From a virus: 25,674 nucleotides of DNA. This document shows positions 722 through 17,665 of the stretch, piece by piece (within the stretch, counting starts at the first letter, position 1; every line of letters begins with the position of its first letter). Both the position numbers and the translations under genes were made by a program. A model generated the notes under the pieces. The model ran no database searches. It saw nothing but the letters and a program-made list of their open reading frames with translations, and had not been told where the DNA came from. The DNA lies in IMG/VR virus record IMGVR_UViG_3300001720_000023, positions 1-25,674 of that record. One strand, written 5' to 3'.

Positions 722-3700
722 TTAGTATTTATCTAACCAGCCTACTGGTTGTGGGGTGTTATAATTTGTAAAGTTAGTAAATTGAGCCTTCTTCTCCAAG
801 GATCCTCCCTGTTTCATCTGTTTCATATCTAGTATTTTCTTAGTTTTTGGGTCAAAATATATTCTTTCATATATTTCAAATGGTTTTCCTGCTCCAAATA
901 TTTCGGACACTTCTGAATTTTCAGTAGCGTTCTTACCACTTTTTGTATTAAAAAGCTTTAGTAATGCTTTACCAGTTCTATTTATAGACGATCCTTCGCC
1001 TGTGGTATTGAATGGGTTCAAGTCCCATATATCATATATAGATATATAGCTTCCATTTTCATCCTCTCCCATATCAAATGTAAAATCTCCTAAAGCGTTA
1101 TCTGCAGTAGGCCATGGTTTACCATCCCCTTCATATTCTCCTCTTGATAATGATCTTTCATTACCTCTTCCTCTTTTACCGTTAAAAAGCCTAGTATCAA
1201 GGAGACTAAAATAATTATCTAGTAATTCTTGTCTAATTTCTGGATTTTTAAAATAAGTAGGTTTTAAATAAACCATACTTTTATCTTCTGAATCACCAGG
1301 TCTGTGATTACTTACAGAAAAACTATTATTAACTTGTGGCATTCCTAGATATAGTCTAAATGCATCTTCTCGGTTAGGTATAGTATATTTTCTTGGATTA
1401 TCACTTTTTGGGTCGTCATACCACAAAGCGTCTTCAGGACGTCCTAGATTTCCCTTAAATCTTCTGTATCTATCAAGATTTTTTGTTATGTCTCCATAAT
1501 CTTGAGGGATTATATTGTTTAATGCTCTTTCAGATAGATTAGGTACATAACCTTTTGCTAATTCATTGGTTATTCCATACTTTTCCATTTGTTCTTTAGC
1601 TGATGTTATAGGACCTTTTGCAGTAACAACTGCTGGATCTAACATAACCAATTGTTGAGGCTCACCTTCATTAGTTTGGAACACACTACTTGGATAAGTC
1701 AGACTTTTTAATTCACCAAACTCATTAACTGTTTTAAGAGGTATGTTATCACCTTCTTGTGCATATGCCATATTAGAAGGACCAGAGGACTTACTGTTAT
1801 CTGATACAGTATTTAAAAGTTCTAGTATCTCATCATCATCATATACTTCTCTTAATTCTTTAAACTGAGCATTGTCTTTCATTACTTCCATCATCTCAGG
1901 AGTTACCTCTGAATCCATGATACTAGGCATTCCTTCCTCTTTTCCAATTGGACTAGTTTCATAGAAATATCTAATAGAATTAAGTCTTGCTCTAGTTTCT
2001 GTTGGGTCACCTATATAGTTAACTCTATTCTTAATATCCTTCTTAGTCTTTCTCTCCACATCTAGATTCTTTGTCTCTTTAAGAGCTTTCTTTCTATAGT
2101 TTTTAATGAGCTTTTGATCACTAAATGGCATAGTTAATCTGTTAAACTCAGCACCTGGTGAAAAGTCTTGAGCGTGTGAGAGTTCATGAAGTATTACATC
2201 TTCATCTTGATTACCTATTAGTTTAGGTTCTGATGTATCTAGAAGACTAGAGTTTAATTTAATGTCATGCCTGTTACGATTATATCTACCTAAGAAATCA
2301 CTAGCATGATCATCCATACTAATATCAATATTATCTAAATTGTTTATTCTTTTATTAGTTACTCTCTCTATATCTTTTTCATCTCCATCAAAACTATTAC
2401 TTAATAATTCTTGACCTCTTGGAGAATTTGTCCAGTTCTTTAAAAACTCTACTTGAGGTGAAGTGTCAGGCACTCTGTTTATATATGGAAAACTTGGTGT
2501 TGCTTTTTTAAGTTTAAGTCCTTCTTGAGCCATTGGATACTCTGTTACAGAGTTACCACCAAACTTGTAATCTTTACCTGGTTGCATCATCTTCTTGTCA
2601 CCAGTATCAGATATTCCAAGTACAGGGTAGTTAACACCCTTCATTGTTATTTTGTTGGAGTTGATTTTAGTTATTTTTCCTGGGTGTGCCCATTGCCCTC
2701 TGTCATCTTCTATCACACCACCTTCTTGAAACTTATCTAACCACCCACCATTTTTGTTTTGTTTAGTATATCTAAATGCTCTGAATGGATCCTTCTTGTA
2801 TTCTTTTCCATCCCTAGTACCTGTATACATACTTTGTCTTTGAATAGGAGCTTCACTATCACCATCTCCAATATACTCTCCAGGATTTACATAAACACCC
2901 ATGTGATATGGAAAGTTTAAATATGATGGGTCTTCTTTTACATCTTCACCATCTGGACCATAGTAGTATTGTAATATATCTCCTGGTTGAAGATTTTTCT
3001 GATCTAATATTTCTTCAAACCCATACTCTTTAAAGTTCTTTAAAAACGTTCTATTATTATAAACATCTTTAGGCATAGCCTTTACACCAGCTTTACTATA
3101 AAAATCTTTTACTGTTTGAACACATGTATTATCTCTACACAAACCTTCTTTATCAAAAAATGCCCTGGCATAATCTGGTATACTTAAAGGCGGTCTTCCT
3201 CCATCTTCTTCATTAGCTTCCATAGAACTTGCTATATCAGCAACCTTTTGACCTATTCCTTTGACAGATTCTTTCTCCAGATTGTTTCTCAGAATACCAC
3301 CTTGAGCTTTAGGTACATTACCACCATGTTTATATTCTAATAATCCATCAGCTCCTATAGCCATTGGTATAGTGGCATATAATCCCTTCATTAATTTCTG
3401 AAGTCCTTTTTTATCTATCACTCTAAAAAAGTCTGCATGTATTTTACTCTTACCAGAGAGTCCATCTCTAAATATTCTGTCAATTAACTTATCTGGTATA
3501 TCATATTGTTTACCAGTTCCCCAGTATTTTGGGTCAATGTATTGTCTTCTAAGCTCCATCACCCTTGCAACCATCTCTGTCTCATCTTGTAAATATTTTG
3601 TCCAGTCTTTAAAAGTTGCTTTAGGATCCTTAAAAAACTTTTGAACCCACTCAGACGTTCCGTCTTTTATTTTGGGATTGGGTTTAAGTGCACCTCTAAT

Positions 3701-5428
3701 TAAATCATTAGTTTGTTTAGTTAAAGCATATCCTCCTGCATTACTAGCATGACCAAGGGTTTCATGTATACCAGTTAGCATTTCCTTTGTTCTTTCTGCA
3801 TTTTTAACAGCTTCAGTAGCTCCTACAGGCACTTCTCTTAGCTTAACAGCACTATTGTTACCTATACCCACTGTGTTTGGTTGATTTGGAAACATATATT
3901 TCCAAGTGTTCAGGGGTTGATTAGCAGTAGGAGGCCAGTATGTCCCTCCTACTCCAGGACCAAGATCTGCACTACTGAAGGTAGTCTTAAACGTACCAGC
4001 CTGTATTGCTTCCATGTTCTTTCTTGCTATAGTAGGATAATACATATTCCAAAAGCCATTAATGTTCTGTTCTAATTGAGTAATTGACTTTTGTAAAGCT
4101 TTGGCTTTAGGAAGAACATGAGCACCTGGAGTTTTTATGAATTCATCTAATTGTTGTTGTAACACATTTAGTTCTCTTGTCTGAACTCTAAGATAATTTT
4201 CATTCATCGTTCCACCAGGAAAAGGCTTCATTATCTGATCATCAAATCTAGACATAAAAGCTGAATTCTTAGGATTTGTATATATTTGCATAAAACGATC
4301 TGCATCTATCTTAGAATTACCTATAAGTGGGTTTGGTGGAGTCTTACCTCTAGTAAGAAAGGTTGGTATATCAGGATTATCCATCCCTATTTTATAAGCA
4401 TCTCCTAAAGGCTTTGTATAGTACTTAGTAATATTTCTGACCCTCTTTGGAAGGACTGCATCAGTAAACCTTTTATTTAATAAAGGAGTAAGTGATAAAG
4501 CATCTAAACCTACATTTCCTGCAGCAGACCAACTAGGATTATTATATAGTTCTTTTACATCTGGAGCAATGTTATAACCACCATAACCTACACTAGCAGC
4601 ATCAGCATAGTTCCCTATACTAAATGGTCCACCTCCTGGTTTATAGTTCGTAAACCTTTTAAAGGGTTCTCCTATATACTTAAAAGCAGCTTTTCCAACA
4701 GGACTATTAGCAGTAAAGTTGTAAGCTTGTCTAACAGGACCAGCAAGAGCTTTATATGCTTGTGGTGTTCTGGACAATAAACTAGCACCACTTATTGGAC
4801 TAGGTATTAAGGATGCAAACAGAGCAACGTTTTTTGCTGCTGTGTTAGTAGCACCATGAATTCTCCTAATCAACTCTTCACGTTCAGGCTTATAGGAGTT
4901 TAAATAATTAAACTCATTTCCTGCATTGTCCTTACTATAAGATGTTCCAAAATATTCATTGTAACTAGCTACGTCTGTAATACCTAGATCTTTAAGTTGT
5001 TGTTGTTGTTCCAATGAAAGAACACGATCATCATCTCCATATCTTAAATAATCAGGCATATCCTTAAATAACTCCTCTCTTATTTCATCTTTCTTTTTTC
5101 TCTCGTTTGACCTTCCAGTTATAACAACCTCATCTAACTGTATACCATCTTCTGGTACTATTGTATACTTGTCACCATATTGAGCTTTAGTAAGGTTAGG
5201 AGGAGACATTGCAGAAGAACCAGAGTTACGTGAATACATCATACCTGATGCACCTGGAAGACTTCCTCCCATTGCATACTTATCTAACCAACCACCATTG
5301 ATTGCTTTCATAGGTGTTGCCCCTCCAGCTATAGCACCGAAGTATCTCTTCTGTTTATCTGACAAAGATTGACCATGGACAGTTCCATCGCTTAACATCT
5401 TTTTTGCTTTACCTGGTGTTAGTGCCAT
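722..5428 (-). CDS. Giant internal virion protein with two zincin-like domains and an NlpC/P60-like domain
   Basis: This 1568-aa protein carries several enzyme-like modules. Residues 555-560 read HETLGH (HExxxH), followed by ExxAR at 618-622. Residues 1081-1085 read HELSH (HExxH), followed by ExxAR at 1144-1148. Between them lies an NlpC/P60-like cysteine peptidase or amidase module: Cys769 in TCVQTVKDFY, LQPGD at 813-817, His842 in YHMGVYV and IGDGD at 853-857. The C-terminal part (about 1270-1537) contains GDFTFDMG and YISIYDIWDLNPF, a domain I recall from other Bacteroidota phages without a known role. Short motifs separate the modules: GGWLDKY (45-51), KAQGG (707-711), GGWLDKF (894-900), MAQEG (966-970), YAQEG (1222-1226), KQGG (1539-1542) and a terminal GWLDKY. 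The start overlaps the previous stop as TAATG. Likely role: cargo ejected through the tail, with peptidoglycan- and protein-cutting activity. The domain calls are by motif; the ejection role is inferred. Confidence 0.9.
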   Translation of the reverse strand: MALTPGKAKKMLSDGTVHGQSLSDKQKRYFGAIAGGATPMKAINGGWLDKYAMGGSLPGASGMMYSRNSGSSAMSPPNLTKAQYGDKYTIVPEDGIQLDEVVITGRSNERKKKDEIREELFKDMPDYLRYGDDDRVLSLEQQQQLKDLGITDVASYNEYFGTSYSKDNAGNEFNYLNSYKPEREELIRRIHGATNTAAKNVALFASLIPSPISGASLLSRTPQAYKALAGPVRQAYNFTANSPVGKAAFKYIGEPFKRFTNYKPGGGPFSIGNYADAASVGYGGYNIAPDVKELYNNPSWSAAGNVGLDALSLTPLLNKRFTDAVLPKRVRNITKYYTKPLGDAYKIGMDNPDIPTFLTRGKTPPNPLIGNSKIDADRFMQIYTNPKNSAFMSRFDDQIMKPFPGGTMNENYLRVQTRELNVLQQQLDEFIKTPGAHVLPKAKALQKSITQLEQNINGFWNMYYPTIARKNMEAIQAGTFKTTFSSADLGPGVGGTYWPPTANQPLNTWKYMFPNQPNTVGIGNNSAVKLREVPVGATEAVKNAERTKEMLTGIHETLGHASNAGGYALTKQTNDLIRGALKPNPKIKDGTSEWVQKFFKDPKATFKDWTKYLQDETEMVARVMELRRQYIDPKYWGTGKQYDIPDKLIDRIFRDGLSGKSKIHADFFRVIDKKGLQKLMKGLYATIPMAIGADGLLEYKHGGNVPKAQGGILRNNLEKESVKGIGQKVADIASSMEANEEDGGRPPLSIPDYARAFFDKEGLCRDNTCVQTVKDFYSKAGVKAMPKDVYNNRTFLKNFKEYGFEEILDQKNLQPGDILQYYYGPDGEDVKEDPSYLNFPYHMGVYVNPGEYIGDGDSEAPIQRQSMYTGTRDGKEYKKDPFRAFRYTKQNKNGGWLDKFQEGGVIEDDRGQWAHPGKITKINSNKITMKGVNYPVLGISDTGDKKMMQPGKDYKFGGNSVTEYPMAQEGLKLKKATPSFPYINRVPDTSPQVEFLKNWTNSPRGQELLSNSFDGDEKDIERVTNKRINNLDNIDISMDDHASDFLGRYNRNRHDIKLNSSLLDTSEPKLIGNQDEDVILHELSHAQDFSPGAEFNRLTMPFSDQKLIKNYRKKALKETKNLDVERKTKKDIKNRVNYIGDPTETRARLNSIRYFYETSPIGKEEGMPSIMDSEVTPEMMEVMKDNAQFKELREVYDDDEILELLNTVSDNSKSSGPSNMAYAQEGDNIPLKTVNEFGELKSLTYPSSVFQTNEGEPQQLVMLDPAVVTAKGPITSAKEQMEKYGITNELAKGYVPNLSERALNNIIPQDYGDITKNLDRYRRFKGNLGRPEDALWYDDPKSDNPRKYTIPNREDAFRLYLGMPQVNNSFSVSNHRPGDSEDKSMVYLKPTYFKNPEIRQELLDNYFSLLDTRLFNGKRGRGNERSLSRGEYEGDGKPWPTADNALGDFTFDMGEDENGSYISIYDIWDLNPFNTTGEGSSINRTGKALLKLFNTKSGKNATENSEVSEIFGAGKPFEIYERIYFDPKTKKILDMKQMKQGGSLEKKAQFTNFTNYNTPQPVGWLDKY

Positions 5429-6297
5429 TAATGATATGATATTTGTGCTGGTGTTACAATAAACTGACTTACTATATGTGTTATAGAAGAGTTATCTAAT
5501 ATGTGTCTCACCTTTAAATTCTTAGCTCTTAGTTGTGACTTCTTAAATGATAGGTCACCATAATTCATGTTGTCCTGATTAACTACTTTATCTATTGATT
5601 TCGATTCACATGATGTCTTAAACAAAGGTACTTGATCATCTTTCTGTAGTGCCCAGAAAGTATTGTATTGATAAAAACTATCTGTCTTTGCATATGTAAT
5701 AGTCTTACTGTCACTATTTAATATAGGATACTGTAAGTATGAACTTAAGTCATTCATAGGTTTAGGCACAAGTTCTATTATACCTGTAGATTGCTGACCA
5801 TTATAAAGAACAGCTTTATTAAAATACTTATCATCAACTTGCACCTTACTATTAGAATCAAATGATCCTAACGTAGAAGGTAGGTATACATACACTTTAC
5901 TATAATCTTTTACATTCTGTAGTATCTCATCGTAATATTTATATGCAAAAGGATACTCAATTATATAAGGAGCTATATCTCCATAGTAATAATTATATAA
6001 AGTATCATTTCTTAAATGAGTCCATAAACATCCAGTTCTTGTTGGAGTATATTTAGCATTTATATATGTTTGATTAGGTATATTTTTAACACTAAAATTC
6101 TTTGTAAATTCACAATTACCATTAGACTTAATTGTTACCACTTCTACAGATGAATCTACTATATAACTTATACCAGAAATAAAATCACTTAGTGAAACAT
6201 TAGTTCCCACAGTAACTCCGTTATCAGTAATGACATCAAAAGGTCCTACATTAGGACTAGAGCTCGTTATTTTTAAATTTATTATTTTTGTTGCCAT
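5428..6297 (-). CDS. GPFD domain fused to a muzzle C-terminal-like segment (split muzzle fragment)
   Basis: The protein has 289 aa. Residues 1-75 are a divergent copy of the domain shared with four fibre-block genes (NVGPFDVITDNG, then SDFISG and an NGNC end). From about residue 91 the sequence (LWTHLRND, YYYGDIAPYIIEYPF, YFNKAVLYNGQQSTGIIEL, YNTFWALQKDDQVPLF, RAKNLKVRHIL, VSQFIVTPAQ) resembles, from memory, the C-terminal end of crAss-like muzzle proteins, which normally continues in the same chain. The ATG is in the same frame as the 2216-aa muzzle-like gene and separated from it only by TAA plus two codons. So either a separate subunit completes the muzzle, or stop readthrough makes a 2508-residue product. 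The stop overlaps the next start by one base (TAATG). Homology to the muzzle end has not been tested by search. Confidence 0.88.
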   Translation of the reverse strand: MATKIINLKITSSSPNVGPFDVITDNGVTVGTNVSLSDFISGISYIVDSSVEVVTIKSNGNCEFTKNFSVKNIPNQTYINAKYTPTRTGCLWTHLRNDTLYNYYYGDIAPYIIEYPFAYKYYDEILQNVKDYSKVYVYLPSTLGSFDSNSKVQVDDKYFNKAVLYNGQQSTGIIELVPKPMNDLSSYLQYPILNSDSKTITYAKTDSFYQYNTFWALQKDDQVPLFKTSCESKSIDKVVNQDNMNYGDLSFKKSQLRAKNLKVRHILDNSSITHIVSQFIVTPAQISYH

Positions 6298-6303
6298 AGT
6301 TAA

Positions 6304-9300
6304 TTATAAAGGACATGCTCCTAATAAAGTTATACCTGTACCAGTTATAGTATTATCTGAAGAACAGAACTGTAAAGTTTCTCCTGTAGGTACAGATATT
6401 GATTGATCATCTCCTACACAGTTAGGATACCACACTACTTGAGGTCCTACTACTTCATATCCGTAACATGGATATATTGATGTTGTGGTAGTAGTAGTTG
6501 CAGGTGCAGTGGTTGTAGTAGTTGTTGTTCCAAATTGATCTGTGCCTTTAGTAACACAAGATGCTTGCTGAGTTACATTTGTAATATTAAGTTTACTCCA
6601 TATAGGTGTGACATCATCTAAGGTAGGTGGGTTTGCTACATAGTCTAAACATCCTATTCCTACCACTCTAAAAGGAGAGGCTGTTTCTACTTGGAATAAA
6701 TAATTCTCACAAGTAGAACCTTCTGCCACAATAGTGATCTCACAATCACATGACATAATCGCTCTACAACTTACAAATTCTGAATTAATTATCTCAGTAT
6801 TTATTTCTGGATTTGCAACTTCATTATCATAATCCCACTGGAAATAATGAAAGTTTCCTGACGCAGTATTTTTTCCTATTGTTATTAATTTACCTGTTTT
6901 AGTATATAATAAGTTAGTTGAGTATGTATAATTACCTCCCACTAGAATTTTCTGTGAAGGGATTCCAGTTGATGCGTCTATTTCTACTATATATCCTTGA
7001 GATGTATCTATTGCAATTAGTGTATTGTCATCTTTAACTACTATCCCAGCCGTTGTACCAAAGGAATTATCAGCTATTGTTAAATCTGAAGCTACCTCTA
7101 CAGTCCATGGGTTTGTTGTAATCTTCCATTTCTTAAATGTAGTATTAAAACCTGGTGAAACTCCATATAAAGTACTCGGTCCAATTGCTAACTTACCAGA
7201 AGTATAGTTAGGAATTGTAACTGGAATACCATTCATATCTGGTATATTTTCTTTATATATATTAACAGTTCCATTGTCATCATTCATTAACCATGTGCAA
7301 CATTGATCAAATGCTCCTGCATATACAGTTGTAGTAGTTGTAAGAGTATTACAATTACATGGTTGTTCTATTTTTACAAATCCATTTTCTACATAGAATA
7401 CTGTTCCAGTCTCATATTGAACACTATACCAACCATCAGGAACTATAGTACAGTCTTGACTTATTCCTAAATAGACTTGAGAGTTAAGTATACTAGTAGA
7501 ATTATCTAGTACACGATATTGATAATTAAAAGTGATAGGTACAATTTCTGTACTTGTATCATTAAATGAAAATGCAGCTACACTACATGCTTCTTGTGCA
7601 GTAGCTGTTCCTACTACTGGTGAAGTTGTACCTTTTATTTGATATCCTTCTACAAAGGTTGAAGTAGTTAAAGGAGTAGGTCTTACACACAAAGTTGTAG
7701 TAGTAGGAGTAGGTACTGTTATGTATCCTACACCATCTATATCACAACTCAACTCTTCTGTTAATGATATATTAAAATTACAATCCGGTGTATATATTGT
7801 AGTGGTAGTTGTAAATAAAGGAGAAGTAGTAGTTGTTGTACTTGTTGTTATAAGAACAACTGCATCTAGTACTCCTACCATCATTTCCAAATTAGGTTCT
7901 TCTTTATCAATTCTACTTCTATCTGGAGTATCAAGAATAGCAGTAAAGTTTGTACAGCATCCATTAATTCCTGAATAGTAGAAGTTATTTTCTCCTATAT
8001 AAAAGTTTGGTAAATAACTATGAAACGATATCCAGCTTTTTGTACTAAAATCAAATGACATAGTCCAAGACTTATTACAAAAGTATTTCGTATCACTTAA
8101 GAATATTTGTTGATCTATTCCATTATTTAATAAAGATGGCAGATAAAAGTTTTGTGTAACTATATCAAAATAAATCAAAGAGTTTATAGGAATATAATCT
8201 AGTTTTGTAATAATAATTCTATCAAACTTACTATCATATACTCCGTGTAGTCCAAATCCTGTAAAGTTATTATCTATGTTTACTTCTGGGAAGTATTCTA
8301 ATATCTCAAAAGGTAAACTGTTTGTCATAAATCTGTTTACTCCTGATCCAAATCCTGTTATATCTACAGCTTTATTTCCACTAATAAGAAATAACTGTCC
8401 TCTTTTTGCATCTGCAGTAATCTGACCGTATGGTAGTTTAAGTAAAAACTTGTGTTGAGATCCTACATACCCAAGATCTGTTTCTGCAAAATCTATCGGA
8501 GGAGAACTAGAAAACATTTTAGGATTACCTATGTAAGCTGCTTGTGGATTACTAGTGTCAATAGTTAAAAGCTTATTATATAATAAAGCTTTGTTTTCAA
8601 ATCGTGCTAATACTGCCTTATCTTGAATACCATCTAATGATATAAGATCACCATAGTTTTGTGGAAAGTCAAATAAATTAAGAGCCCTATACACTAGCCA
8701 ATTGTTTACTCTATTATCAGGAGTATCTGATTGTGAGTCAGAGTAAATTGCTCTAAATGGGAAAAATGTAAAACATAATTCCTCTCTCCAATCTGGAGGA
8801 AGTTGACTAAATGAATTCTCTTTGTTTTGTTTAGAGTAAGTTACATTATAGTAATAAGTATTATCTTGAGCAATTGGAACATTTACTTCTTGAAACCACT
8901 CGTCTGGAATACCACTACTTACATGAGGCCAAAAGTCTCCTTCTTTAGTATTAAAAGCCTGTCTTAAATCTGTATTATATACACTTTCACAATAGAAGTT
9001 AGGAACACCATAAGCCCATAAATACATGTAACCATTATAAAATGTTCTGTATGTACCTGCAATAGGATTATCTGTATTTGCATCATATAAAGAAGGATCG
9101 CTAGGACAATCAAAATTATTAGCCTTAGTAGAAATAAGGTTAAACATATTTTGAGGAGCATCCTCACCTTTAGTTACTGTGTAATTACTCAGTATAGATC
9201 TAGCAGAATGCCAATATTTAGGATAAGCTACATTACCTAACTCATCAAAGAATATGTCTGAATCATCAGGTGCTTCTACTCTATTATCTATAAAGAATGG

Positions 9301-12300
9301 TAGTTTAGTTTTAAATGTAAATCTAGATATAAATACATCACCACCAAATATAGTATCACTATCAGATGAATTTAATAGTTTTTGATATCCTGTATCTATT
9401 CTTTTAAATGAATTTATTTGACCCCACTGATTAGGTATAATATTTTTCATAGAAGCATAATAGGAAACCACCTTTATGTCTTGTTCTCTTTCAGGAGTAC
9501 TACAAGCACCACTATCTCCTATAGCAAATCTTGAATACTCTACCATACTAGAAGTTCCATCTGAAGCCGCTAAACTATTTGTATCTTGTGGAATAGGTAA
9601 TGCTAATAAATTGTCATTAGTTTTAGTTTTAATATATACTGATGATTCTCTATTCCAGTTATTTATAGGGGCATCATTATTATTAAATGATTGAACTCCT
9701 GGTATTAAATACCTTGCAAGCTCTATCTCTCTTTGTTTGATACCACTGCTAACATTATTGTCAATAGGAAAAGAATAATCATAATTTGCTCTTGAGTTGA
9801 AAGACATTGCATAGTTCTTTCTTGTTATACCATTTATGTATATAGTAAGATAGGATTGGTATACTGTAAACATTACACCAGCATTCCATTCAGCTCCCAT
9901 GTTAGCTACTCTTTCTGAACTATCTAAAGCATCTTGTTGAGCCTCTTTAGTTAGAAGTTTATACTTAGCGTTGTCTTTAACTTCTACAAAATGAGCCTTC
10001 CCAGCTCCAGCCATGACACTTTCTAATTTTAGTACACCACCTAAAAATGGCTGCCCAAAGGATGTGTCAGGAGAATTAAATATTAATTTATCTAAAATAT
10101 CTTTTGCTCTTTCAGCATCAGGACCATCCAAAGGTGTAATAGGTGTATCTTTATCACAATTTAAACAAGACCTTCTTCCTTGACGACTATTTGTACCACT
10201 AAGAGAAGCACTTCCACCATCTTCCAAAGCTGTTTGAGGAGTAAAAGTATTTGTCGAATCATCAGGATTAGGTACTACTGCAGGAAGAGGATTAGTAGGT
10301 TCTCCAAAACCAGAGGGTTCACCATTAACTGTATCAATACAACATTGACATGCCTCTCCATTAGGACCTTCAGTACATTGGTTTGAAAAACAACCTGGAG
10401 AATAATTACCATTAGCAGCATTAGTTCCATCTTCATTTACACAAACTCCATTATTACCAAGAGGTGCTAGTTTTAACATAGGTCTACGACCATTACTTCC
10501 ATTAATTGATACACACTGTTTAGTTTCAATACCTGGTCTAAAAGCATGACCTCCAGCATCTTCATTAAATTGACCATCATAATCAAAGTCAGGATCAAAA
10601 TCAGTTATTACAGTACCTGTTTTATCAGTAAGAAATGGTAAGAAATATGCAGCCCACCATTTTTTTCCAACAAGAGTTCCATCAAAGTTTATATTATTAA
10701 AAGGATTTTGAGTTACTGATCTCCAACCACAATATGCACCACTATCATGAAAGCATTTCCATATATCATAATCTCCAGGACCTATAGTCATTACTCCTTT
10801 AAGAGCTACAGGTCTTGTAATAGAACATACTTCTATAATACAATTAGGTTTAATAACTGCCTCTGTAGGTCTTCCATTAGTGACACTGGTATATGAAAAT
10901 ACACCATCCTCACTATTTACTACTATGTTAAGATCTACTCCTGGAAGAGCAGTTGATGCAGAATCTGGCATATATACAAGCCATGCTTTAGATTTATAAT
11001 TCCAAGCATTGTTATTCTCTTGTAGAAATGAGTCTTCTCCAGAAATTTGATTGTATGGATAGTTAGGATAGTAGTACTCTTGATCTTGTCTTATATAAGA
11101 GTTTACATTTCTAAGTATACCTTTAGCTATAATTGAACGATTTGTACCACGATCTCCTCTAACTATTTTAAATCCTACAATATCATCTTTTTGATCTTGT
11201 GTTAAATCAGAAGTTAATATTAAGTTTGAAATTTGATTGTCATTAATCTTTACTCCCATAGGGAATACTGGATTACTATCTTGCATAACAGGAACCATAT
11301 TGTTTCCGTCATAAGTAATAACAGGACTTTCTATAATGGGACTAATTAATACATCTGGAAATTTATGATGTCTAATAGGTTGATCTGCTAAATTACCCCA
11401 TACATCTTTATTACAAGGATACTTTTCAGTAGACTCCCAGTATGCAAACTCTCCAAACTCATAAGGTCCTTTGTAGCTTTCAGTAGAAAGATAGCCAGGT
11501 GAGAAACCTAGATTTATAGCATTGTTATATATCTTCCAATATGGACTATATCCTATACCGTTTTGAAAGTAATCTGGCTCACCTATAAAATCATCATTAG
11601 TGTTGGGTATGTCAGGTTGTACATTAAGATTGTTAGGACCTGGGATATGAAAAGAATCTGTTTGTTTTCCATTCTTAAGAAGAAATACTATTTCAAAAGC
11701 ATACACTTCATCACGCATATATCCACGTAAGTTTGTAGCATTCTCTTCATCAGCATAATTTTCATCAGCAGGTAATCTATGAGTTTCCCATTGTAAGGTT
11801 ATATCATTAGCAATCTGTTGATAGTTGATTCTATCTATAGATGTTAAATTATCCCATACTAATACATCTTGAACTGATGTTAAATCTTTAGCAATATCAT
11901 AATAAGGATACTTTTCAAATATATCATTTATTGATAATCTTATAGCTGTCTGATCTGCTCCTGTATAGGTTATATCTTCTGTAGTTTCTGTAATGTTATA
12001 AACACCTACTAGTTCTACTGAAGTAATATTATTTATAGTTTTAATTACTGCTAAGTTGAAGTAATTAAATTGTCCTGATATATCTAAATTAGATACTTTT
12101 ACTATAATAGATTTACCTACTGGATAGTTAAAGTTTACTGTTGTTATAAGAGGATCAGCAATAGGACAAGGGTTGGTTACTGAATAATAAGATGTTAAAT
12201 CATTACCTGTAGCATCAGAGTATTGAATAGCAAACTGATACATTCCAGCTTCTAATGATCCTACATTAGTTACTTCATTAACATCTAAAAAAGGTATGTC

Positions 12301-12954
12301 AAAGTTAGGCTGTATCTTTAGTTGATTACAGTCTAATATATCACTATATACAGGATCACAATTAGGACTTCCAGAAATTAATGTATAAGGAAGACCAATT
12401 GGTTCTAAGTTCTCGTCTGTTTCTACATTTAAATATCTTCTAGCATTAAATCCATCAGTCCAATATATCTCTGTGGTACAGTTTGTTATTTTATGTACTA
12501 CCTTTGGTATAGGGTGATCAACACTAAAGTTTAAACATGGAGCATTGATTAGCGTGCGATACTGACAATCATTATTAAACATGAAGCCAATTTCACTTCC
12601 ACCAGTTAAAGGGTTTACTAAAAAGAATATGTTTTTCTTTTTCTCAGGAATAGTATGCTTTCCTATAAGTTCATAACCATCAGGAAAACTAAGACAAGGC
12701 TCATTACCAGGTTCATTTTGATAATTAATAGAACTAGAATCAAAGTTCTCAACCGTTGCATTTAAAGCATAGGTAAGGTTCCCTGTTTTCACCTGGTTAA
12801 TTGTACTGTCCATATTAAGTCCAGACTGAGCTTGATTAAACTCCATTCTCACTTGACCTTTCTGAGCAGATTCCATCTTCTTAGCTTCTGCAGCTTTCTT
12901 CTTAGCTGCAGTTAAGCCTGAAGCAGAGTCATCCATTTCTTTTCTAGTAGCCAT
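6304..12954 (-). CDS. Giant tail muzzle-like protein with appended Thr-linked modules
   Basis: This 2216-aa protein follows the P22 gp4-like ring gene, the usual place of the tail muzzle/stabilisation protein in crAss-like phages. The N-terminus (1-35) is a charged Lys/Ala segment. Up to about residue 1690 lies a long beta-rich region with landmarks I recall from this family: GVYDSKFDRIIITKLDY, YFCNKSWTMSF and WISFHSYLPNFYIGENNF. A Cys-rich patch (CFSNQC, CQCCID, CLNC) sits in the middle. After that come additions: a Thr linker near 1701-1720, a small domain opening with DCNF, a Cys-bounded domain ending EQPCNC, a short Thr run near 1870, a propeller-like domain (about 1880-2135), a Thr linker near 2140-2160, and a C-terminal Cys domain beginning CYGYEVVG. 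The expected muzzle end is missing and appears in the next ORF. Likely role: distal tail channel and receptor contact. The muzzle assignment rests on synteny and recalled motifs. Confidence 0.92.
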   Translation of the reverse strand: MATRKEMDDSASGLTAAKKKAAEAKKMESAQKGQVRMEFNQAQSGLNMDSTINQVKTGNLTYALNATVENFDSSSINYQNEPGNEPCLSFPDGYELIGKHTIPEKKKNIFFLVNPLTGGSEIGFMFNNDCQYRTLINAPCLNFSVDHPIPKVVHKITNCTTEIYWTDGFNARRYLNVETDENLEPIGLPYTLISGSPNCDPVYSDILDCNQLKIQPNFDIPFLDVNEVTNVGSLEAGMYQFAIQYSDATGNDLTSYYSVTNPCPIADPLITTVNFNYPVGKSIIVKVSNLDISGQFNYFNLAVIKTINNITSVELVGVYNITETTEDITYTGADQTAIRLSINDIFEKYPYYDIAKDLTSVQDVLVWDNLTSIDRINYQQIANDITLQWETHRLPADENYADEENATNLRGYMRDEVYAFEIVFLLKNGKQTDSFHIPGPNNLNVQPDIPNTNDDFIGEPDYFQNGIGYSPYWKIYNNAINLGFSPGYLSTESYKGPYEFGEFAYWESTEKYPCNKDVWGNLADQPIRHHKFPDVLISPIIESPVITYDGNNMVPVMQDSNPVFPMGVKINDNQISNLILTSDLTQDQKDDIVGFKIVRGDRGTNRSIIAKGILRNVNSYIRQDQEYYYPNYPYNQISGEDSFLQENNNAWNYKSKAWLVYMPDSASTALPGVDLNIVVNSEDGVFSYTSVTNGRPTEAVIKPNCIIEVCSITRPVALKGVMTIGPGDYDIWKCFHDSGAYCGWRSVTQNPFNNINFDGTLVGKKWWAAYFLPFLTDKTGTVITDFDPDFDYDGQFNEDAGGHAFRPGIETKQCVSINGSNGRRPMLKLAPLGNNGVCVNEDGTNAANGNYSPGCFSNQCTEGPNGEACQCCIDTVNGEPSGFGEPTNPLPAVVPNPDDSTNTFTPQTALEDGGSASLSGTNSRQGRRSCLNCDKDTPITPLDGPDAERAKDILDKLIFNSPDTSFGQPFLGGVLKLESVMAGAGKAHFVEVKDNAKYKLLTKEAQQDALDSSERVANMGAEWNAGVMFTVYQSYLTIYINGITRKNYAMSFNSRANYDYSFPIDNNVSSGIKQREIELARYLIPGVQSFNNNDAPINNWNRESSVYIKTKTNDNLLALPIPQDTNSLAASDGTSSMVEYSRFAIGDSGACSTPEREQDIKVVSYYASMKNIIPNQWGQINSFKRIDTGYQKLLNSSDSDTIFGGDVFISRFTFKTKLPFFIDNRVEAPDDSDIFFDELGNVAYPKYWHSARSILSNYTVTKGEDAPQNMFNLISTKANNFDCPSDPSLYDANTDNPIAGTYRTFYNGYMYLWAYGVPNFYCESVYNTDLRQAFNTKEGDFWPHVSSGIPDEWFQEVNVPIAQDNTYYYNVTYSKQNKENSFSQLPPDWREELCFTFFPFRAIYSDSQSDTPDNRVNNWLVYRALNLFDFPQNYGDLISLDGIQDKAVLARFENKALLYNKLLTIDTSNPQAAYIGNPKMFSSSPPIDFAETDLGYVGSQHKFLLKLPYGQITADAKRGQLFLISGNKAVDITGFGSGVNRFMTNSLPFEILEYFPEVNIDNNFTGFGLHGVYDSKFDRIIITKLDYIPINSLIYFDIVTQNFYLPSLLNNGIDQQIFLSDTKYFCNKSWTMSFDFSTKSWISFHSYLPNFYIGENNFYYSGINGCCTNFTAILDTPDRSRIDKEEPNLEMMVGVLDAVVLITTSTTTTTSPLFTTTTTIYTPDCNFNISLTEELSCDIDGVGYITVPTPTTTTLCVRPTPLTTSTFVEGYQIKGTTSPVVGTATAQEACSVAAFSFNDTSTEIVPITFNYQYRVLDNSTSILNSQVYLGISQDCTIVPDGWYSVQYETGTVFYVENGFVKIEQPCNCNTLTTTTTVYAGAFDQCCTWLMNDDNGTVNIYKENIPDMNGIPVTIPNYTSGKLAIGPSTLYGVSPGFNTTFKKWKITTNPWTVEVASDLTIADNSFGTTAGIVVKDDNTLIAIDTSQGYIVEIDASTGIPSQKILVGGNYTYSTNLLYTKTGKLITIGKNTASGNFHYFQWDYDNEVANPEINTEIINSEFVSCRAIMSCDCEITIVAEGSTCENYLFQVETASPFRVVGIGCLDYVANPPTLDDVTPIWSKLNITNVTQQASCVTKGTDQFGTTTTTTTAPATTTTTTSIYPCYGYEVVGPQVVWYPNCVGDDQSISVPTGETLQFCSSDNTITGTGITLLGACPL
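6482..6530. repeat. Thr-codon repeat before the C-terminal domain of the 2216-aa gene
   Basis: Two runs of ACN codons around an Ala-Pro-Ala break, just before the final Cys domain. Plus-strand reading is GTN repeats. Confidence 0.8.
7799..7853. repeat. Thr-codon repeat at the muzzle/insert boundary
   Basis: Two Thr runs around Ser-Pro-Leu-Phe mark where recalled muzzle sequence ends and the appended modules begin (near residue 1701). Shorter Thr runs follow at about 7325-7345 and 7690-7715. Confidence 0.8.
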
Positions 12955-12959
12955 ATATA

Positions 12960-13964
12960 TTAATTAAAACCATTACGTCTCCAACGTCTATTTGAATATC
13001 TACCTGATACTTGAGATTTTGCATCTGGAAGTTCATATTGGTTAAAACGATTTAAGTCAGTAATAATTTTTCTTTGCTTTTGATAAACTGTTTCTTTTTT
13101 AAGTTCTGTTTCTGCCATTACCCAGGCTTCATCCATTACTTGTTTATGATACATAAGTTTAGTCTGTAGTTGATTGAATGTTTCGTCTACTGTTTGATTT
13201 GTAAGAGTTTCAAATACTTTAAATTTAATAAATGCTTCAATGTATTCTCTAACACGAAAGTTATCAGGTATTAATTGATTGCCTATTTTATCATAGTCTG
13301 TTGCATAAAATACTAGATGTACTGTTCCTGATCTAAAATTTGTTACGAAGTTATTATCTCTGATATCAAAAGAGTCAAAAGAAGAAGCACCAGGTGTAAA
13401 CTCACGACCTGCTAAAGTTAATTGGTTAAATTGTGACCAAGAATTAGTATAGGATAAATTACAACTTTTACGTGCAGATATATTTCCTGGCTTTAATAAA
13501 TAAGAACGTCTCCAGGATCTAGGAATTTCACTATTTGTTTTATATACAGCTTGTACTACTGTAGGCATACATGTACCATCACAACTAGGATGTTGACATG
13601 ATGGATTATCACAAGGAGTTCCTCCTATTGTTAGAGGAGCTACTTGAATAGTAGTAGCGTTAACTGCTTGAGTATATAAAGAAGATGCTGCAGGATAAGG
13701 ATTTCCTTGCACTACTGCACACATCCATGCTTCTCTTACTGCATAAAAGTTATCAGGAAGTCTTGCTTGAAAGTCGTCCACAAATAAAATCTCAGTAGTA
13801 ATTTGAAATGTAGTCCTACCCATCTTCCTAAGACACTTATCTAGGTAGGTAGGGAATAATAAATCATCTACAGCTCCAGTATCAAAATAACTTTTAAGTT
13901 CTTCTTTTACTGTTGCATATAATGGTTCTGGGGATACAAAATCGTATTTATAATAGTATGACAT
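12960..13964 (-). CDS. P22 gp4-like tail ring/connector protein with a Cys/His cluster
   Basis: This 334-aa protein begins YYYKYDFVSPEPLYATVKEE (3-22) and continues SYFDTGAVDDLLFPTYLDKCLRKMG and LPDNFYAVREAW (69-80). This pattern is one I recall from crAss-like ring or head-tail connector proteins of the P22 gp4 type, which sit below the portal and extend the DNA channel. An insertion holds C118, C123, H125, C128 and C132 (CDNPSCQHPSCDGTC), a spacing able to bind a metal. The C-terminus is basic and ends in RRWRRNGFN, which would suit a flexible or DNA-facing tail. It starts three bases after the upstream stop and precedes the muzzle-like gene by five. It belongs to a compact tail-assembly operon. 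Function is inferred from motif recall and synteny; the metal site is only a pattern. Confidence 0.92.
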   Translation of the reverse strand: MSYYYKYDFVSPEPLYATVKEELKSYFDTGAVDDLLFPTYLDKCLRKMGRTTFQITTEILFVDDFQARLPDNFYAVREAWMCAVVQGNPYPAASSLYTQAVNATTIQVAPLTIGGTPCDNPSCQHPSCDGTCMPTVVQAVYKTNSEIPRSWRRSYLLKPGNISARKSCNLSYTNSWSQFNQLTLAGREFTPGASSFDSFDIRDNNFVTNFRSGTVHLVFYATDYDKIGNQLIPDNFRVREYIEAFIKFKVFETLTNQTVDETFNQLQTKLMYHKQVMDEAWVMAETELKKETVYQKQRKIITDLNRFNQYELPDAKSQVSGRYSNRRWRRNGFN

Positions 13965-13967
13965 AAG

Positions 13968-14447
13968 TTATTTTTTCCATTCATGGTATATGTGTTGGTA
14001 TTTATTGTCTGCTTTTAAGTAGTGAGAAAGATCTCTTGAAGTTCTTCTAGAAGGTTTAAAGTACCATAGATCAGAATTTCTAAATCTAGCACTTTGTTTA
14101 AACCACATCCAACCAAAGAAGTATCCTTCTGTGTGATAGTTAAAGTTATATATAACCTTTCCTTTCTGTTTAGTTTTCTGCCAATCAATAGGAAGATTTA
14201 CAAATTCCTTACCGTCAATTCCTTTAGTTCTTCTTCTTTTCTTTTTGTTAATAGAAAACTCTCCAAACCCAGTAGGTAATTTTTCTTTCTCTCCTGTCTC
14301 TAAAATGTAGTATTTGAATGATTCATTAAATGCATACAGAATATTTCTCCACTCATCAAAAGTAAGAGATATCAAAGGGTTCTTTTTACAGAAGTCTTCG
14401 TAATTATTTTTACTTGCACTTCTCCAGTCAACTGCTACTCTTGACAT
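13968..14447 (-). CDS. crAss-like conserved tail ring/completion protein
   Basis: This 159-aa protein is basic and aromatic-rich, with no signal peptide or membrane segment. Recognisable stretches are LSFDEW-like ISLTFDEWRNILYAFN (26-41), ILETGEKEKLPTGFGEFSI (48-66), a KKKRRR run and LPIDWQKTKQKGKVIYNFN (84-102), then HTEGYFFGWMW. I recall the LETGEK-xx-LP-GFG and LPIDW-KT patterns from a small conserved protein in crAss-like tail gene clusters, likely one of the ring proteins. It lies eight bases after the 242-aa gene and three before the P22 gp4-like gene, so all three are probably translated from one message and assembled into the same tail neck. Biochemical role is not visible from sequence. 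An enzymatic role looks unlikely, since no catalytic motif is evident. Confidence 0.9.
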   Translation of the reverse strand: MSRVAVDWRSASKNNYEDFCKKNPLISLTFDEWRNILYAFNESFKYYILETGEKEKLPTGFGEFSINKKKRRRTKGIDGKEFVNLPIDWQKTKQKGKVIYNFNYHTEGYFFGWMWFKQSARFRNSDLWYFKPSRRTSRDLSHYLKADNKYQHIYHEWKK

Positions 14448-14455
14448 ATATAGTT

Positions 14456-15184
14456 CTAGTTTGTAGGTTGAGCATTTGGAGCTTGTCCATCTATGCCTTC
14501 ATTACTCATATCATCCTTAATTTGGAAATATGTTGACAATAACTTTTGAGAAGTTAATGATAATGCTTGTTGTTCTAAATAACCAGGTAATGCATATTCC
14601 TTGTCTAAAGGATTTTTACAATACTCTTCATCTGTATATTCAGGACTTCCACATCCACATTCTGGATACATGATCTCGTTAGGTACATCTTCTTCAAAGA
14701 ATGCTGTTAACCTTATTGCTTTTAATAAAGGATTATTTACATAAAGATACCCACTAGATATCCAGAAGTAATAATCATTTTTTATTATAGGTAGTTTTAA
14801 TAGATTAATATATCTATTGATTGTTATTTCTTTTAATTTAGTACCTCTTCCACCCATGGCATCTATAGAATATACACCTTGAATTACATACTGATAGTTA
14901 CCTTCGGAGATCCTAGGCAACTTAAATACTGTTCGTGACACACTACACTCGTCTGCATACTCACAACATTCAGAGATAGGTACTTCCTTCATCTCTAAAC
15001 AAGGTATTGTAGTAAACAATGTATCACTTGCCCATAGCTTTCTTAAGTTAGTTTCTCTTTTAATTAACAATTGAGCAGTATTCTTAACCTCAGAAGCGAT
15101 TGCTCGATCTGTTATAAGTGCATCCGTTGATAAAATCTTGTGCATTGATCGCACGTCTGAAACTAATTTTCTTAATGTTGCCAT
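14456..15184 (-). CDS. crAss-like conserved tail ring protein, 242 aa
   Basis: The protein carries stretches I recall as strongly conserved in crAss-like phages: SVDVRSMHK-like SDVRSMHKIL near the N-terminus, ITDRAIASEVKNTAQLLIKRE (25-45), RKLWASDTLFTTIPCLEMKEV (48-68), PISECCEYADEC, LPRISEGNYQYVIQGVYSID (90-109) and INRYINLLKLP. A C-rich segment (YPECGCGSPEY) follows, and the C-terminus is helical and polar. It ends in TAG, one of only two genes here that do. Its position upstream of the 159- and 334-aa ring-type genes suggests it is another tail ring or tail-hub component at the neck. No catalytic motif is visible. The family assignment is from memory and the exact ring position is not known. 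Confidence 0.9.
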   Translation of the reverse strand: MATLRKLVSDVRSMHKILSTDALITDRAIASEVKNTAQLLIKRETNLRKLWASDTLFTTIPCLEMKEVPISECCEYADECSVSRTVFKLPRISEGNYQYVIQGVYSIDAMGGRGTKLKEITINRYINLLKLPIIKNDYYFWISSGYLYVNNPLLKAIRLTAFFEEDVPNEIMYPECGCGSPEYTDEEYCKNPLDKEYALPGYLEQQALSLTSQKLLSTYFQIKDDMSNEGIDGQAPNAQPTN

Positions 15185-15334: not shown

Positions 15335-16579
15335 CTATATTCTTTCTTCAAATTCAGCTACCTTTCCTACTTTAAAGTCATAGACTAACGCTAAGGCAGC
15401 TCGTACACTATGTACAAAATTATTATCTTTATGCCATCTATCTGTTCCAGATAAACTAGGCATTTGTTGTATTCTTACTCCCTTTATTTCCTTTGCCATA
15501 TAGTGATGTTTATCACCTGTGTGAACTTCTCTATATGTAGCATCTCCAAACCATTTACTATAAACTGGATGTGTTGCAAACAATAAAGGTAACGCATCAA
15601 TTTTACAGTTACCATGATGAAAACCAATAAATGTACTACCAACTACGGTAGCTTTGATTAATCCTTCCTCTCTAACAAATGATATGTTTTTATCATTCTT
15701 AAAGAATATATCTAACGCATGAGCTAAATAATAGGATTTAGTTCTATCATGATTACCTTGTACTAGAATAACCTCAACATGCTTGGAGTTAGTCTTAAGC
15801 ATCTTAATAGTATCTACTAGAATATTAAATCCCATTTCATACTCTGAAGCATAGTCTAAGATTATATCCTGTGGAGTACCATTGGTTGTAGTGTTTTGAT
15901 AATTATCAGTATGAAAGAAATCATTAGATATAGGAAACACTACTTTATTTATATCATAAACAGATCTAACTTTATGTGTTAAAGCTTCTGCTATATGTAC
16001 AAACCTTGTAGCTCTAGTCTCTGGATCATTATCTCCATCAACATATCTTTTACCTAAATGGTAATCAGATAAAGATAATTCAATATCTACAAGAGATTTA
16101 TCATTATCTAGTTTAGGAGAAGAAATAGGAATGTAGTTTGATTTGTAGTTCTCTAGGAACTTGCTGAAATCATCAGCTGTATAATCTTGTGGACCTTTTC
16201 TTTTTGAAAAGATCGAAGATGTAAACTTACCAGTTGGAAGTACTTTAGACCAATAGTTAGTAATTATATACTTTTCTAAATCTATCTTGTGTAATTGTGC
16301 TAATTCTATATCACTCTTTGGTTCAAAGTCAAGAGTTATTGTACTTTCTATTGTTCCCTTATCGTTACTTACCTTCCGCAGTGCCTGTTCAAATTCTTTA
16401 CTGTGAGTTGGTTCATTTAAAAACTCTTCTCCTTCATCTACATTCTTACCCCTCATCTCTTTTAATAATTCATTTACTTCAGACAGTGTTATTTTCAGTT
16501 GTTCTGCATACCACTGTTTGCTTCTTTTTCGCTTTAGTAATGATTTTAACTCATTAAGAAGCCCTTGATTTTCAGCCAT
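15335..16579 (-). CDS. Calcineurin-like metallophosphoesterase (Mre11/SbcD-like nuclease candidate)
   Basis: This 414-aa protein shows the ordered motifs of the calcineurin-like phosphoesterase fold: DxH at D172/H174 (LSDYHLGK), a D220 block in SNDFFHTDN, GNHD at 275-278 (VQGNHD), HH at 321-322 (FHHGN), and HTGDKHH at 353-359 in place of the usual GHxH. These residues normally bind two metal ions and cleave phosphodiesters, often DNA ends in phage relatives. The first 45 residues are basic and look like a helix-turn-helix (RKRSKQWYAEQLKITLSEVNELL), perhaps for DNA binding. It is the first gene after the terminator hairpins, with AGGA three bases before the ATG, an unusual Shine-Dalgarno-like start here. 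It ends in TAG. Substrate is unknown: DNA end processing is likeliest by family, and a role in tail assembly is not excluded. Confidence 0.92.
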   Translation of the reverse strand: MAENQGLLNELKSLLKRKRSKQWYAEQLKITLSEVNELLKEMRGKNVDEGEEFLNEPTHSKEFEQALRKVSNDKGTIESTITLDFEPKSDIELAQLHKIDLEKYIITNYWSKVLPTGKFTSSIFSKRKGPQDYTADDFSKFLENYKSNYIPISSPKLDNDKSLVDIELSLSDYHLGKRYVDGDNDPETRATRFVHIAEALTHKVRSVYDINKVVFPISNDFFHTDNYQNTTTNGTPQDIILDYASEYEMGFNILVDTIKMLKTNSKHVEVILVQGNHDRTKSYYLAHALDIFFKNDKNISFVREEGLIKATVVGSTFIGFHHGNCKIDALPLLFATHPVYSKWFGDATYREVHTGDKHHYMAKEIKGVRIQQMPSLSGTDRWHKDNNFVHSVRAALALVYDFKVGKVAEFEERI

Positions 16580-16720: not shown

Positions 16721-16753
16721 AAGTTCTCTAAAACCAACAAAAGAGAACTTTTT
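16721..16753. terminator. Second hairpin, opposite-orientation terminator-like
   Basis: AAGTTCTCT (16721-16729) and AGAGAACTT (16742-16750) form a perfect 9-bp stem around a 12-base A-rich loop. On the plus strand a T-run follows, so it could stop antisense transcription. On the minus strand it sits directly behind the TAA of the 221-aa gene and before the main terminator, where it could also protect the message 3' end. Confidence 0.65.
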
Positions 16754-17417
16754 ATGGGTTGAAGTCATTACAACATTGACTGTGTATCCATGTAAAATTA
16801 AAGCTATCTCCAGAGCTTCCACTAAAATTAAAATCTTGAACTACACAAGGTGTTTCTAATGAGGTATTTACTACATTGTAGTTTCTTATTGAGAGTGTTC
16901 CTACATTACCATTTCCATTGTTCTGAGTGTTTGTCATTGTTATACTATTTCTATATGATATAAGATCAGGATCAAAAAAGAATAACTGCATATTACCTAA
17001 AGGACAAGCAAAGTCTGGTTGTGTTATAATTTGAGTAACATTACTTCCTACCATTACTGATCCTACTTGTGCACTTTGATTTAAACTTACATCTCCTATT
17101 TTTATACCATTTAAAAATATATCAAAGTCATCTTGTACAGTAGCACTAGTATTACATAGTTGAAAAACTATTGTTTGATTTGTACAAACAGGTGGAATAT
17201 TAATAACTATATCTTCATGATTATTACAATTAGAATTAACCGACAGTAATCTTACTACTGTAGTTCCATCAGGAACATTGTAAGATACAAAACCTACAAT
17301 AAGCTGTGCTGCAGTTATTCCAGTTTCAAAAGCTTCTGTATACCCATTAACTTGAGAGAATATATCAAATGGTCCTGCATCACTTCCTATATTATTAGCT
17401 TGTATTAATACTGTCAT
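16752..17417 (-). CDS. GPFD-domain fibre protein, 221 aa
   Basis: Residues 1-75 are a copy of the domain shared by five genes in this window (DAGPFDIFSQVNGY, AFETGITAAQLIVGF, VPDGTTVVRL, then a Cys near the end). The rest is a beta-rich, Asn-rich region: CTNQTIVFQLCNTSATVQDD, FDIFLNGIKIGDVSL, FACPLGNMQLFFFDPD and a C-terminal domain ending FTWIHSQCCNDFNP. It is the last gene of the adhesin operon and its stop abuts the hairpins. There is no signal peptide or membrane segment. The arrangement of a common N-terminal domain plus a variable C-terminal part suggests a virion-attached adhesin, with the GPFD part as anchor. That role is inferred from architecture; no family with a known function was recognised. 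Confidence 0.88.
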   Translation of the reverse strand: MTVLIQANNIGSDAGPFDIFSQVNGYTEAFETGITAAQLIVGFVSYNVPDGTTVVRLLSVNSNCNNHEDIVINIPPVCTNQTIVFQLCNTSATVQDDFDIFLNGIKIGDVSLNQSAQVGSVMVGSNVTQIITQPDFACPLGNMQLFFFDPDLISYRNSITMTNTQNNGNGNVGTLSIRNYNVVNTSLETPCVVQDFNFSGSSGDSFNFTWIHSQCCNDFNP

Positions 17418-17419
17418 TA

Positions 17420-17665
17420 TTATGTTATTATAATTACATCTACAAAGTTATCATTGCAATCATGATTAGTAAGAGAATTTTGTATTCTTATAGTAGTAGT
17501 TCCAATTGGTGCAGCAGATGTATTATATCCTAAAGCACTAGTTAGTACTGTAATAGATATATTACTAGCAAAAGCATTAACATAGTTATCTGCATCTGAA
17601 TATAAATCTACAGGACCAGAACATGCCCCTGCAGAAGTTAGTTGTATTTTAATTTGTTGTGCCAT
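17420..17665 (-). CDS. Stand-alone GPFD-domain protein, 81 aa
   Basis: The whole protein is one copy of the shared domain: CSGPVDLYSDADNYVNAF, then an ISITVLTSALGY helix-like stretch, PIGTTTIRIQ, and NHDCNDNFVDVIII at the end. The central Phe of GPFD is Val here. It starts 11 bases after the upstream stop and ends two bases before the next start. The lack of any C-terminal addition suggests the domain folds and works alone, perhaps filling anchor sites on the virion or acting as an adaptor between fibre proteins. Function is not known. Confidence 0.85.
   Translation of the reverse strand: MAQQIKIQLTSAGACSGPVDLYSDADNYVNAFASNISITVLTSALGYNTSAAPIGTTTIRIQNSLTNHDCNDNFVDVIIIT

Follow-up and report, generated by a model that had tools for sequence, protein, structure and literature searches.

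Is the muzzle of this phage one protein or two? The muzzle is a hallmark of the crass-like phages, thought to gate ejection and to touch the host, and the portions of the literature at hand treat it as one polypeptide per subunit. The window, by which we mean the whole stretch of 25,674 nucleotides analyzed here (IMG/VR record IMGVR_UViG_3300001720_000023), is a crAss-like phage fragment in which ring protein 2, ring protein 1 and the muzzle are near neighbors, in this order. There, the muzzle open reading frame (ORF) of 2216 amino acids (aa) ends at a single TAA, beyond which an ORF of 289 aa begins in the same frame. A sequence-only reading of this DNA had offered two ways out: either the muzzle is a two-chain assembly or readthrough of the TAA makes a minor 2508-residue form carrying extra adhesin modules. 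Sequence comparison, we argue, shows that this tail protein is truly divided, and it is divided in each of the scorable relatives read; of the two options, the two-chain muzzle is to be favored over readthrough. The muzzle of this phage clade is very probably encoded by two cistrons, the chains of which would assemble into one muzzle. The two genes and their border are as follows.

6304..12954, minus strand: chain 1, the muzzle N-terminal chain, 2216 aa (Pfam crAss_MUZ, E 1e-31; PHROG 37948, E 1.3e-105)
5428..6297, minus strand: chain 2, the muzzle C-terminal chain, the 289-aa ORF (399 relatives; its own ORF in the best 80)
6298..6306, minus strand: stop TAA and 6-base spacer before the next ATG, an ordinary junction

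The C-terminal end of the muzzle

That chain 1 is a crAss-like muzzle, as had been proposed, is well borne out: against the curated Pfam family PF25731 (crAss_MUZ), it scores 110.4 bits, where the cut-off is 27. Where, then, is the rest of the muzzle? Searched by tblastn, the 289-aa ORF matched 32 of 50,697 phage records (E limit 0.1), 29 of them from Flavobacterium phages, and the matches include Lbo-JY46 (7e-14), MT837925 (1e-9), csAssE-Sib (4e-7) and Fpv1 (7e-7). In all three annotated records (Fpv1 gp30, the csAssE-Sib muzzle and Lbo-JY46), the match falls at the C-terminal end of one long gene. A profile made from 66 distinct chain-2 ORFs, with E values that relate to sets of five or two sequences, covers residues 1445-1647 of 1654 in Lbo (1e-29), 1588-1781 of 1783 in Fpv1 (3e-16), 2062-2220 of 2257 in csAssE (8e-15) and 1164-1343 of 1362 in MT837925 (2e-20), whose ORF is open at the contig start. 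In gp42 of Cellulophaga phage phi4:1, it covers residues 2098-2246 of 2289, at 2e-5, a value from a two-sequence set that is weak taken alone.

The complementary profile, made from chain 1 up to residue 1700, stops in the single-chain muzzles at the same turn where the chain-2 match starts. Because the two matches overlap there by about 20-40 residues, the two ORFs together span the single-chain muzzles to their end, with no gap visible; at the junction site, those proteins have a short turn (FETGIQKNSRSSVWSH in Lbo, for example). The 289-aa protein does align to muzzle C-termini, and the muzzle is not complete within residues 1-1690 of chain 1, so the earlier proposal that the C-terminal end is missing from the 2216-aa ORF and sits in the 289-aa ORF holds, on tblastn, profiles and a structural alignment (of the relative L083, described below). 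The whole muzzle is not in one polypeptide, its C-terminal part being in the next ORF; judged by homology, the locus encodes the muzzle in split form, with neither ORF a whole muzzle by itself. General searches were quieter. Against Pfam and PHROGs, the 289-aa ORF found no family (only a chance-level Cytidylate_kin match at 0.12), and a sequence search of PDB returned nothing for either ORF. Viral contigs searched with the Lbo-JY46 C-terminal region (34 stretches) and genome contigs searched with the 289-aa ORF (45 stretches) held no relative among those stretches.

The same comparisons show how each chain is divided: chain 1 is muzzle up to a turn near the C-terminal end and then threonine-rich linkers and variable modules, and chain 2 opens with a small immunoglobulin-like (Ig-like) module, called GPFD here, after which comes the remainder of the muzzle through to its C-terminus.

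7954..12954, minus strand: muzzle-homologous part, chain 1 residues 1-1667, which stops close to strand B in the last propeller blade (profile; strands assigned by eye)
6307..7848, minus strand: threonine-rich linkers and variable modules, chain 1 residues 1703-2216 (faster divergence; a putative adhesin role)
6052..6297, minus strand: GPFD module, chain 2 residues 1-82, Ig-like (predicted local distance difference test, pLDDT, about 90; its profile matches two stand-alone genes)
5431..6051, minus strand: muzzle C-terminal part, chain 2 residues 83-289, the last strands of the final blade and a presumed ring-joining domain (homology; ratio of nonsynonymous to synonymous substitution rates, dN/dS)

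These parts change at very different rates. Against the relatives L004, L005 and L006, dN/dS is 0.05, 0.08 and 0.08 for the C-terminal part of chain 2 and 0.45, 0.44 and 0.61 for its GPFD module; over 2145 pairs, mean identity is 74% for the former and 42% for the latter. In chain 1, compared across 11 relatives, the muzzle part keeps 60-88% identity and the end modules 30-76%. The C-terminal part of chain 2 is, by these ratios, under purifying selection. Conserved core parts flank the break, and the modules that separate them change faster, as one would expect of exposed binding parts, and a role for them in receptor binding may be supposed.

Might chain 2 nevertheless have left the muzzle altogether, becoming an independent tail protein, derived from the muzzle end, that binds elsewhere while chain 1 works alone as a shortened muzzle? 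We infer the contact between the chains, which leaves room for this idea, and chain 2 does have its own start and an extra N-terminal module. Yet the chain-1 match ends at a turn near the muzzle end, and in all scorable relatives, the remainder is in a separate ORF. Chain 2 is also the next muzzle-derived gene in order, with 54 rows showing 57-91% identity to the window, and its C-terminal part is the slowly changing one. We regard a stand-alone chain 2 as improbable, although it is the best surviving of the alternatives to a two-chain muzzle.

The stop codon between the two genes

The description of the junction itself was accurate. The two ORFs, both on the minus strand, share a frame (12954 minus 6297 is 3 x 2219), and read directly, only TAA, TTA and ACT lie between the last sense codon of the 2216-aa ORF and the ATG of the 289-aa ORF (CCT TTA TAA TTA ACT ATG). 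If readthrough of this TAA yielded a minor full-length muzzle of 2508 residues with extra modules, one would expect relatives to keep the same frame on either side of the stop. The search with the 289-aa ORF yielded 399 relatives, of which the best (closest) 80 were fetched and read. In all 80, the homologue of that ORF stands as an ORF of its own, preceded by an in-frame stop and 286-291 aa long when counted from a conserved ATG. Chain 2 lies in relative frames 0, 1 and 2 to the upstream ORF at 10, 34 and 33 of 77 scored loci (left aside were L010 and L023, at contig ends with about 215 bases upstream, and L017), or at 10, 28 and 26 of 64 with identical proteins removed. The gaps between the chains run from -4 to +12 bases, with one case of +250.

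In three loci, a further ORF intervenes between the chains: one of about 212 aa with a GPFD module at its start in L079 and L081 and one of 142 aa, possibly owed to a frameshift, in L005. (The muzzle-chain module region of L005 is interrupted at positions 9450-9993 of that locus, by a frameshift error or a further break.) Eight in-frame loci were examined, and in six of them, two or three stops fall within a stretch of four codons. Neighboring genes share a frame by chance about one time in three, and within the window, 13 of 16 gene gaps measure between -13 and +24 bases, so that a gap of 6 bases is usual. Nor is TAA a sense codon, since it ends 51 of the 71 nonoverlapping ORFs of at least 100 aa in a 115-kb record of the same phage (TAG ends 11 and TGA 9).

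Because relative frames vary, gaps are short and other junctions in the window are similar, the TAA junction is an ordinary gene border, and the shared frame is a one-in-three coincidence. Readthrough can point to the ORFs being in frame in the window and in the records L049 and L004, among 10 of 77 scored loci overall; with three relative frames in use, with gaps this short, with ORFs between the chains, with multiple stops at most of the in-frame loci examined and with TAA as the main stop of the genome, it is very improbable, and the 2508-residue form has no support. Of the extra modules that this form was to carry, some are indeed at the end of the upstream ORF, although a separate module, Ig-like, makes up the first 82 or so residues of the 289-aa ORF.

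Could the border be an artifact, or could it be removed after transcription? The other record of the same phage (L049, also in IMG/VR, 115,478 bp) is 99.86% identical to the window across all 25,674 bases, with 28 mismatches and 4 gap openings, and may not be independent of it; L004 is a separate record (91% protein identity) with the same junction letters. An assembly slip at the junction is unlikely because the junction is the same in both. Introns and inteins are, by the portions of two papers at hand, frequent in crAss-like phages (PMC7886860, PMC10136315), and a group I or II intron or an intein might join the parts by RNA or protein splicing. We find this hard to credit: the window and six related loci held no Rfam family at the gathering score (which is not proof of absence), neither ORF matched an intein family in Pfam at E values up to 1, the intervening stretch is open coding sequence and the start of chain 2 is conserved. 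That the muzzle gene is simply broken, by degradation or sequencing error, draws on L005 and on the early first-ORF end in L076, which may be errors, and it founders on the identical junction in the window, L049 and L004, on the split in 78 of 78 scorable loci and on a C-terminal dN/dS of 0.05-0.08.

Break sites, modules and assembly

How widely is the muzzle divided, and where? Among 78 scorable loci (L010 and L023, with about 215 bases upstream, are again outside the count), 59 have two genes, 15 have three and in 4 the two genes are set apart by an extra ORF or a long gap (L005, L048, L079 and L081); a single-chain muzzle was found in none of the 78. Counted by distinct chain-2 protein, the 66 comprise 51 with two genes, 10 with three, 3 with the extra ORF or gap and 2 that are not scorable. 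In the three-gene relatives, there is a second cut at about residue 1608 (window numbering), and the middle gene has a short new N-terminus followed by a YFCNKSW-like stretch; the first ORF of L076 is the one that ends early.

Three-gene loci, about 7700-9160 in each: L045, L047, L059, L061, L063, L065, L066, L068-L072 and L074-L076
8107..8133, minus strand: break site 1, unbroken in the window, at about chain 1 residues 1608-1616 (second cut in three-gene relatives; insert in phi4:1 gp42)
7849..7890, minus strand: possible clasp strand, chain 1 residues 1689-1702 (LEMMVGVLDAVVLI), after break site 2, where the chains are divided (putative; recurs in relatives)

Ten further IMG/VR loci found with Fpv1 and csAssE queries (L097-L101 and L104-L108, several of them near-copies) are all single-chain; L109, being phi4:1 itself, is not among the ten. 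In a tree of the C-terminal part (73 rows, 9 of them single-chain), the 64 split rows fall on one side of a branch with support 100/99, most of the single-chain rows having very long branches, and the three-gene state needs at least three changes. The pattern is consistent with one origin for the split. An order of insertion first and then breakage is likely, to judge from these comparisons; at break site 1, L054 has an in-frame stretch rich in threonine and serine, and phi4:1 gp42 has its insert. By eye, the gp44 counterparts of break sites 1 and 2 in phi-crAss001 are near residues 1199 and 1236. With strands assigned by eye from the sequence pattern and from DSSP of the L083 model, both breaks would be in the B-C turn of two successive last blades.

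Structure prediction bears on whether the two chains make one fold. Chain 2 folded alone (55 sequences) gave block pLDDT values of 77-94 over residues 1-80, with a predicted template modeling score (pTM) of 0.36. We also folded L083, a relative with both ORFs in frame, as one chain of 916 aa with the TAA as Tyr; the 53 rows of its alignment were picked after several trials of row sets, such that chain-1 and chain-2 rows were both lined up. This model has block means of 57-88 over residues 213-355 and of 52-71 over 731-900 in the C-terminal part (lower at the edges), with a pTM of 0.41. When the 1000 best Foldseek chains were re-aligned to it with VIA-align, the phi-crAss001 muzzle came first (7qol_P, Z 11.7, 229 residues, root mean square deviation 7.1) and second (7qok_A, Z 10.9), and the next rows were other phage nozzles at 7.6 or less. 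The aligned ranges are model 211-913 and gp44 1122-1371, the latter reaching the C-terminal residue of gp44. The alignment spans the break, since the chain-1 residues from 211 to the clasp number about 180, fewer than the 229 aligned, and since the alignment ends where chain 2 ends. Given the high deviation, how the parts are placed relative to one another is poorly predicted. The propeller-end and ring-joining fold may be matched at Z 11.7, in a model of the relative L083 with a pTM of 0.41.

What might hold the chains together? Between the break and the threonine-rich linker, chain 1 has a short hydrophobic strand with glycine. A strict pattern for it is present in 47 of 60 distinct sequences and a looser form, by eye, in the other 13 (the count is without L010, L023, L077 and L082, for which the search pattern gave no sequence). 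The pattern is not in the short turn of four single-chain muzzles, and the fifth, gp44, was not matched by it. In the L083 model, the counterpart, residues 384-391, has a block pLDDT of 87 with flanks below 50. With the strand present, the type 9 secretion C-terminal domain 8gl8_D (T9SS-CTD) is aligned from its residue 1040 to model residues 382-698 (72 residues, Z 6.7); with the GPFD module alone, it is aligned from residue 1047, seven later (Z 6.0). For three Ig-like chains (8gl8_D, 5g56 and 8ave_B), the alignment ranges extend from the clasp strand into the GPFD module, and from the ranges, the clasp strand itself may fill 8gl8_D 1040-1046. The two Z values are tied and low, they come with ranges only and the chains are artificially joined in the model. 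We therefore offer only tentatively, as somewhat more likely wrong than right, the idea that donor-strand complementation staples the chains, a chain-1 strand supplying the missing first strand of the Ig-like GPFD module. If it is true, the muzzle subunit is a multichain propeller with a built-in clasp, and the propeller turns are plug-in points where receptor-binding modules are exchanged at gene ends with the core untouched.

The GPFD module has kin of its own. Its profile picks out two stand-alone genes shared by the 115-kb relative and the window (E 1.5e-8 and 1.5e-6); in a five-row alignment, the shorter ORFs 17420-17665 and 18810-19067, which are below the size limit of the profile search, resemble it as well. 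A row of small genes (16752-17417, 17420-17665, 17677-18807 and 18810-19067) has the chain-2-like module first, some then having threonine-rich linkers. When the module region of chain 1 was compared with 12 other ORFs of the window, nothing significant emerged (best E 2.3). Among the nearest solved folds of the GPFD module are C-terminal domains of type 9 secretion substrates (RemZ, NucA and RemA, Z 4.8-6.0); the match of the module alone to 8gl8_D (length 75) covers 65 residues, and a Z below 8 may reflect a common Ig-like arrangement.

On the two-chain reading, both chains would be translated, each from its own start, and readthrough would not be required. The C-terminal part of chain 2 would pair with the edge that chain 1 leaves open in its last propeller blade; the seven blades of the propeller would then be complete, as would the ring-joining domain, which docks on the tail barrel. 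The hexameric muzzle would then be 6+6 chains, or 6+6+6 in the three-gene relatives. The break would be an exposed turn to which receptor-binding modules are attached, the chain-1 modules ending at this turn and the single chain-2 module beginning at it. Of the two-chain muzzle once proposed, the separate ORFs stand on sequence comparison, and the assembly of the chains is a deduction from them.

Several points weigh against this reading. Physical contact between the chains is presumed from homology, as is translation of chain 2 from selection and the conserved start. The chain-2 profile against phi-crAss001 gp44 was not significant (best domain 0.036, five-sequence set). Both models are weak, with a mean pLDDT of about 51 and pTM values of 0.36 and 0.41: the C-terminal part of chain 2 folded alone is mostly below a pLDDT of 50, so are residues 1-212 of the L083 model (a muzzle fragment), and the rise in pLDDT in the C-terminal part of L083 compares different sequences and alignments and is at most suggestive. 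Foldseek itself gave no match at E of 0.001 or below and no muzzle among the 50 rows listed for the L083 model, and likewise for the second model searched. The relatives read are 80 of 399, the closest ones.

Neighboring genes and known systems

The muzzle locus adjoins tail ring protein genes, the crassvirus setting, with one further ORF (13968-14447) separating the two ring protein genes.

12960..13964, minus strand: tail ring protein 1, upstream neighbor of chain 1 (Pfam CrAss_Ring_1, E 1.7e-8)
14456..15184, minus strand: tail ring protein 2 (Pfam CrAss_Ring_2, E 3.3e-18)

The 115-kb relative L049 also has the major capsid protein (Pfam Crass_capsid, E 9e-31). Among the tail genes are a DNA repair exonuclease-like protein of 414 aa (15335-16579; PHROG 704, E 4.9e-53) and an ORF of 443 aa (20539-21870) that carries LTNNHV and GDSGS, with no Pfam match at 0.01; these motifs we take to be reminiscent of a trypsin-like serine protease. 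After chain 2 comes an ORF of 1568 aa (722-5428) with GGWLDKY-like repeats and a weak SprT-like match (E 0.019), and the ORFs at its place differ greatly in length among the relatives inspected.

What does a divided muzzle mean? Since a clade carries its muzzle in two or three genes, the propeller would seem to tolerate cuts close to its end, and the division offers natural split points for dissecting the tail machine in the laboratory. It also suggests a route by which receptor-binding modules may be added to the tail tip, insertion in a turn and then a chain break there, and it warns that annotating one ORF alone misses the other part of the muzzle gene. No description of a muzzle in two genes was found in the titles and abstract openings of the open-licence literature, which does not establish its absence from print.

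The closest known muzzles are single chains. The muzzles of the Flavobacterium phage Fpv1 (gp30), csAssE-Sib and the Leptolyngbya phage Lbo-JY46 (XAI97387) have C-terminal ends homologous to chain 2, but each is one chain with a short turn where the break lies. A parallel among isolates is Cellulophaga phage phi4:1 gp42 (phi17:2 gp43; Lightbulbvirus), in which roughly 290 aa are inserted in frame at break site 1; the record annotation of gp42 cites tandem mass spectrometry. Unlike the split muzzle, gp42 is a single chain of 2289 aa with a short turn at break site 2. Phi-crAss001 gp44 (PDB 7QOK, 7QOL) shares the tail gene neighborhood, and the L083 model aligns to its last 250 residues, but it is one chain of 1371 aa with short turns near 1199 and 1236, at the break sites. 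Its ring-joining domain and seven-bladed propeller are described, in the part of the source at hand, as similar to those of T7 (PMC10172136), and because of that resemblance, chain 2 would carry the propeller end and the barrel-docking part. The T7 nozzle gp12 is likewise a single chain, and the portion of its description at hand mentions no modules at the corresponding turns (PMC6702177). In the same portion, however, the seven-bladed gp12 has N-terminal strands that complete its C-terminal platform domain (PMC6702177), a precedent for distant segments sharing one domain.

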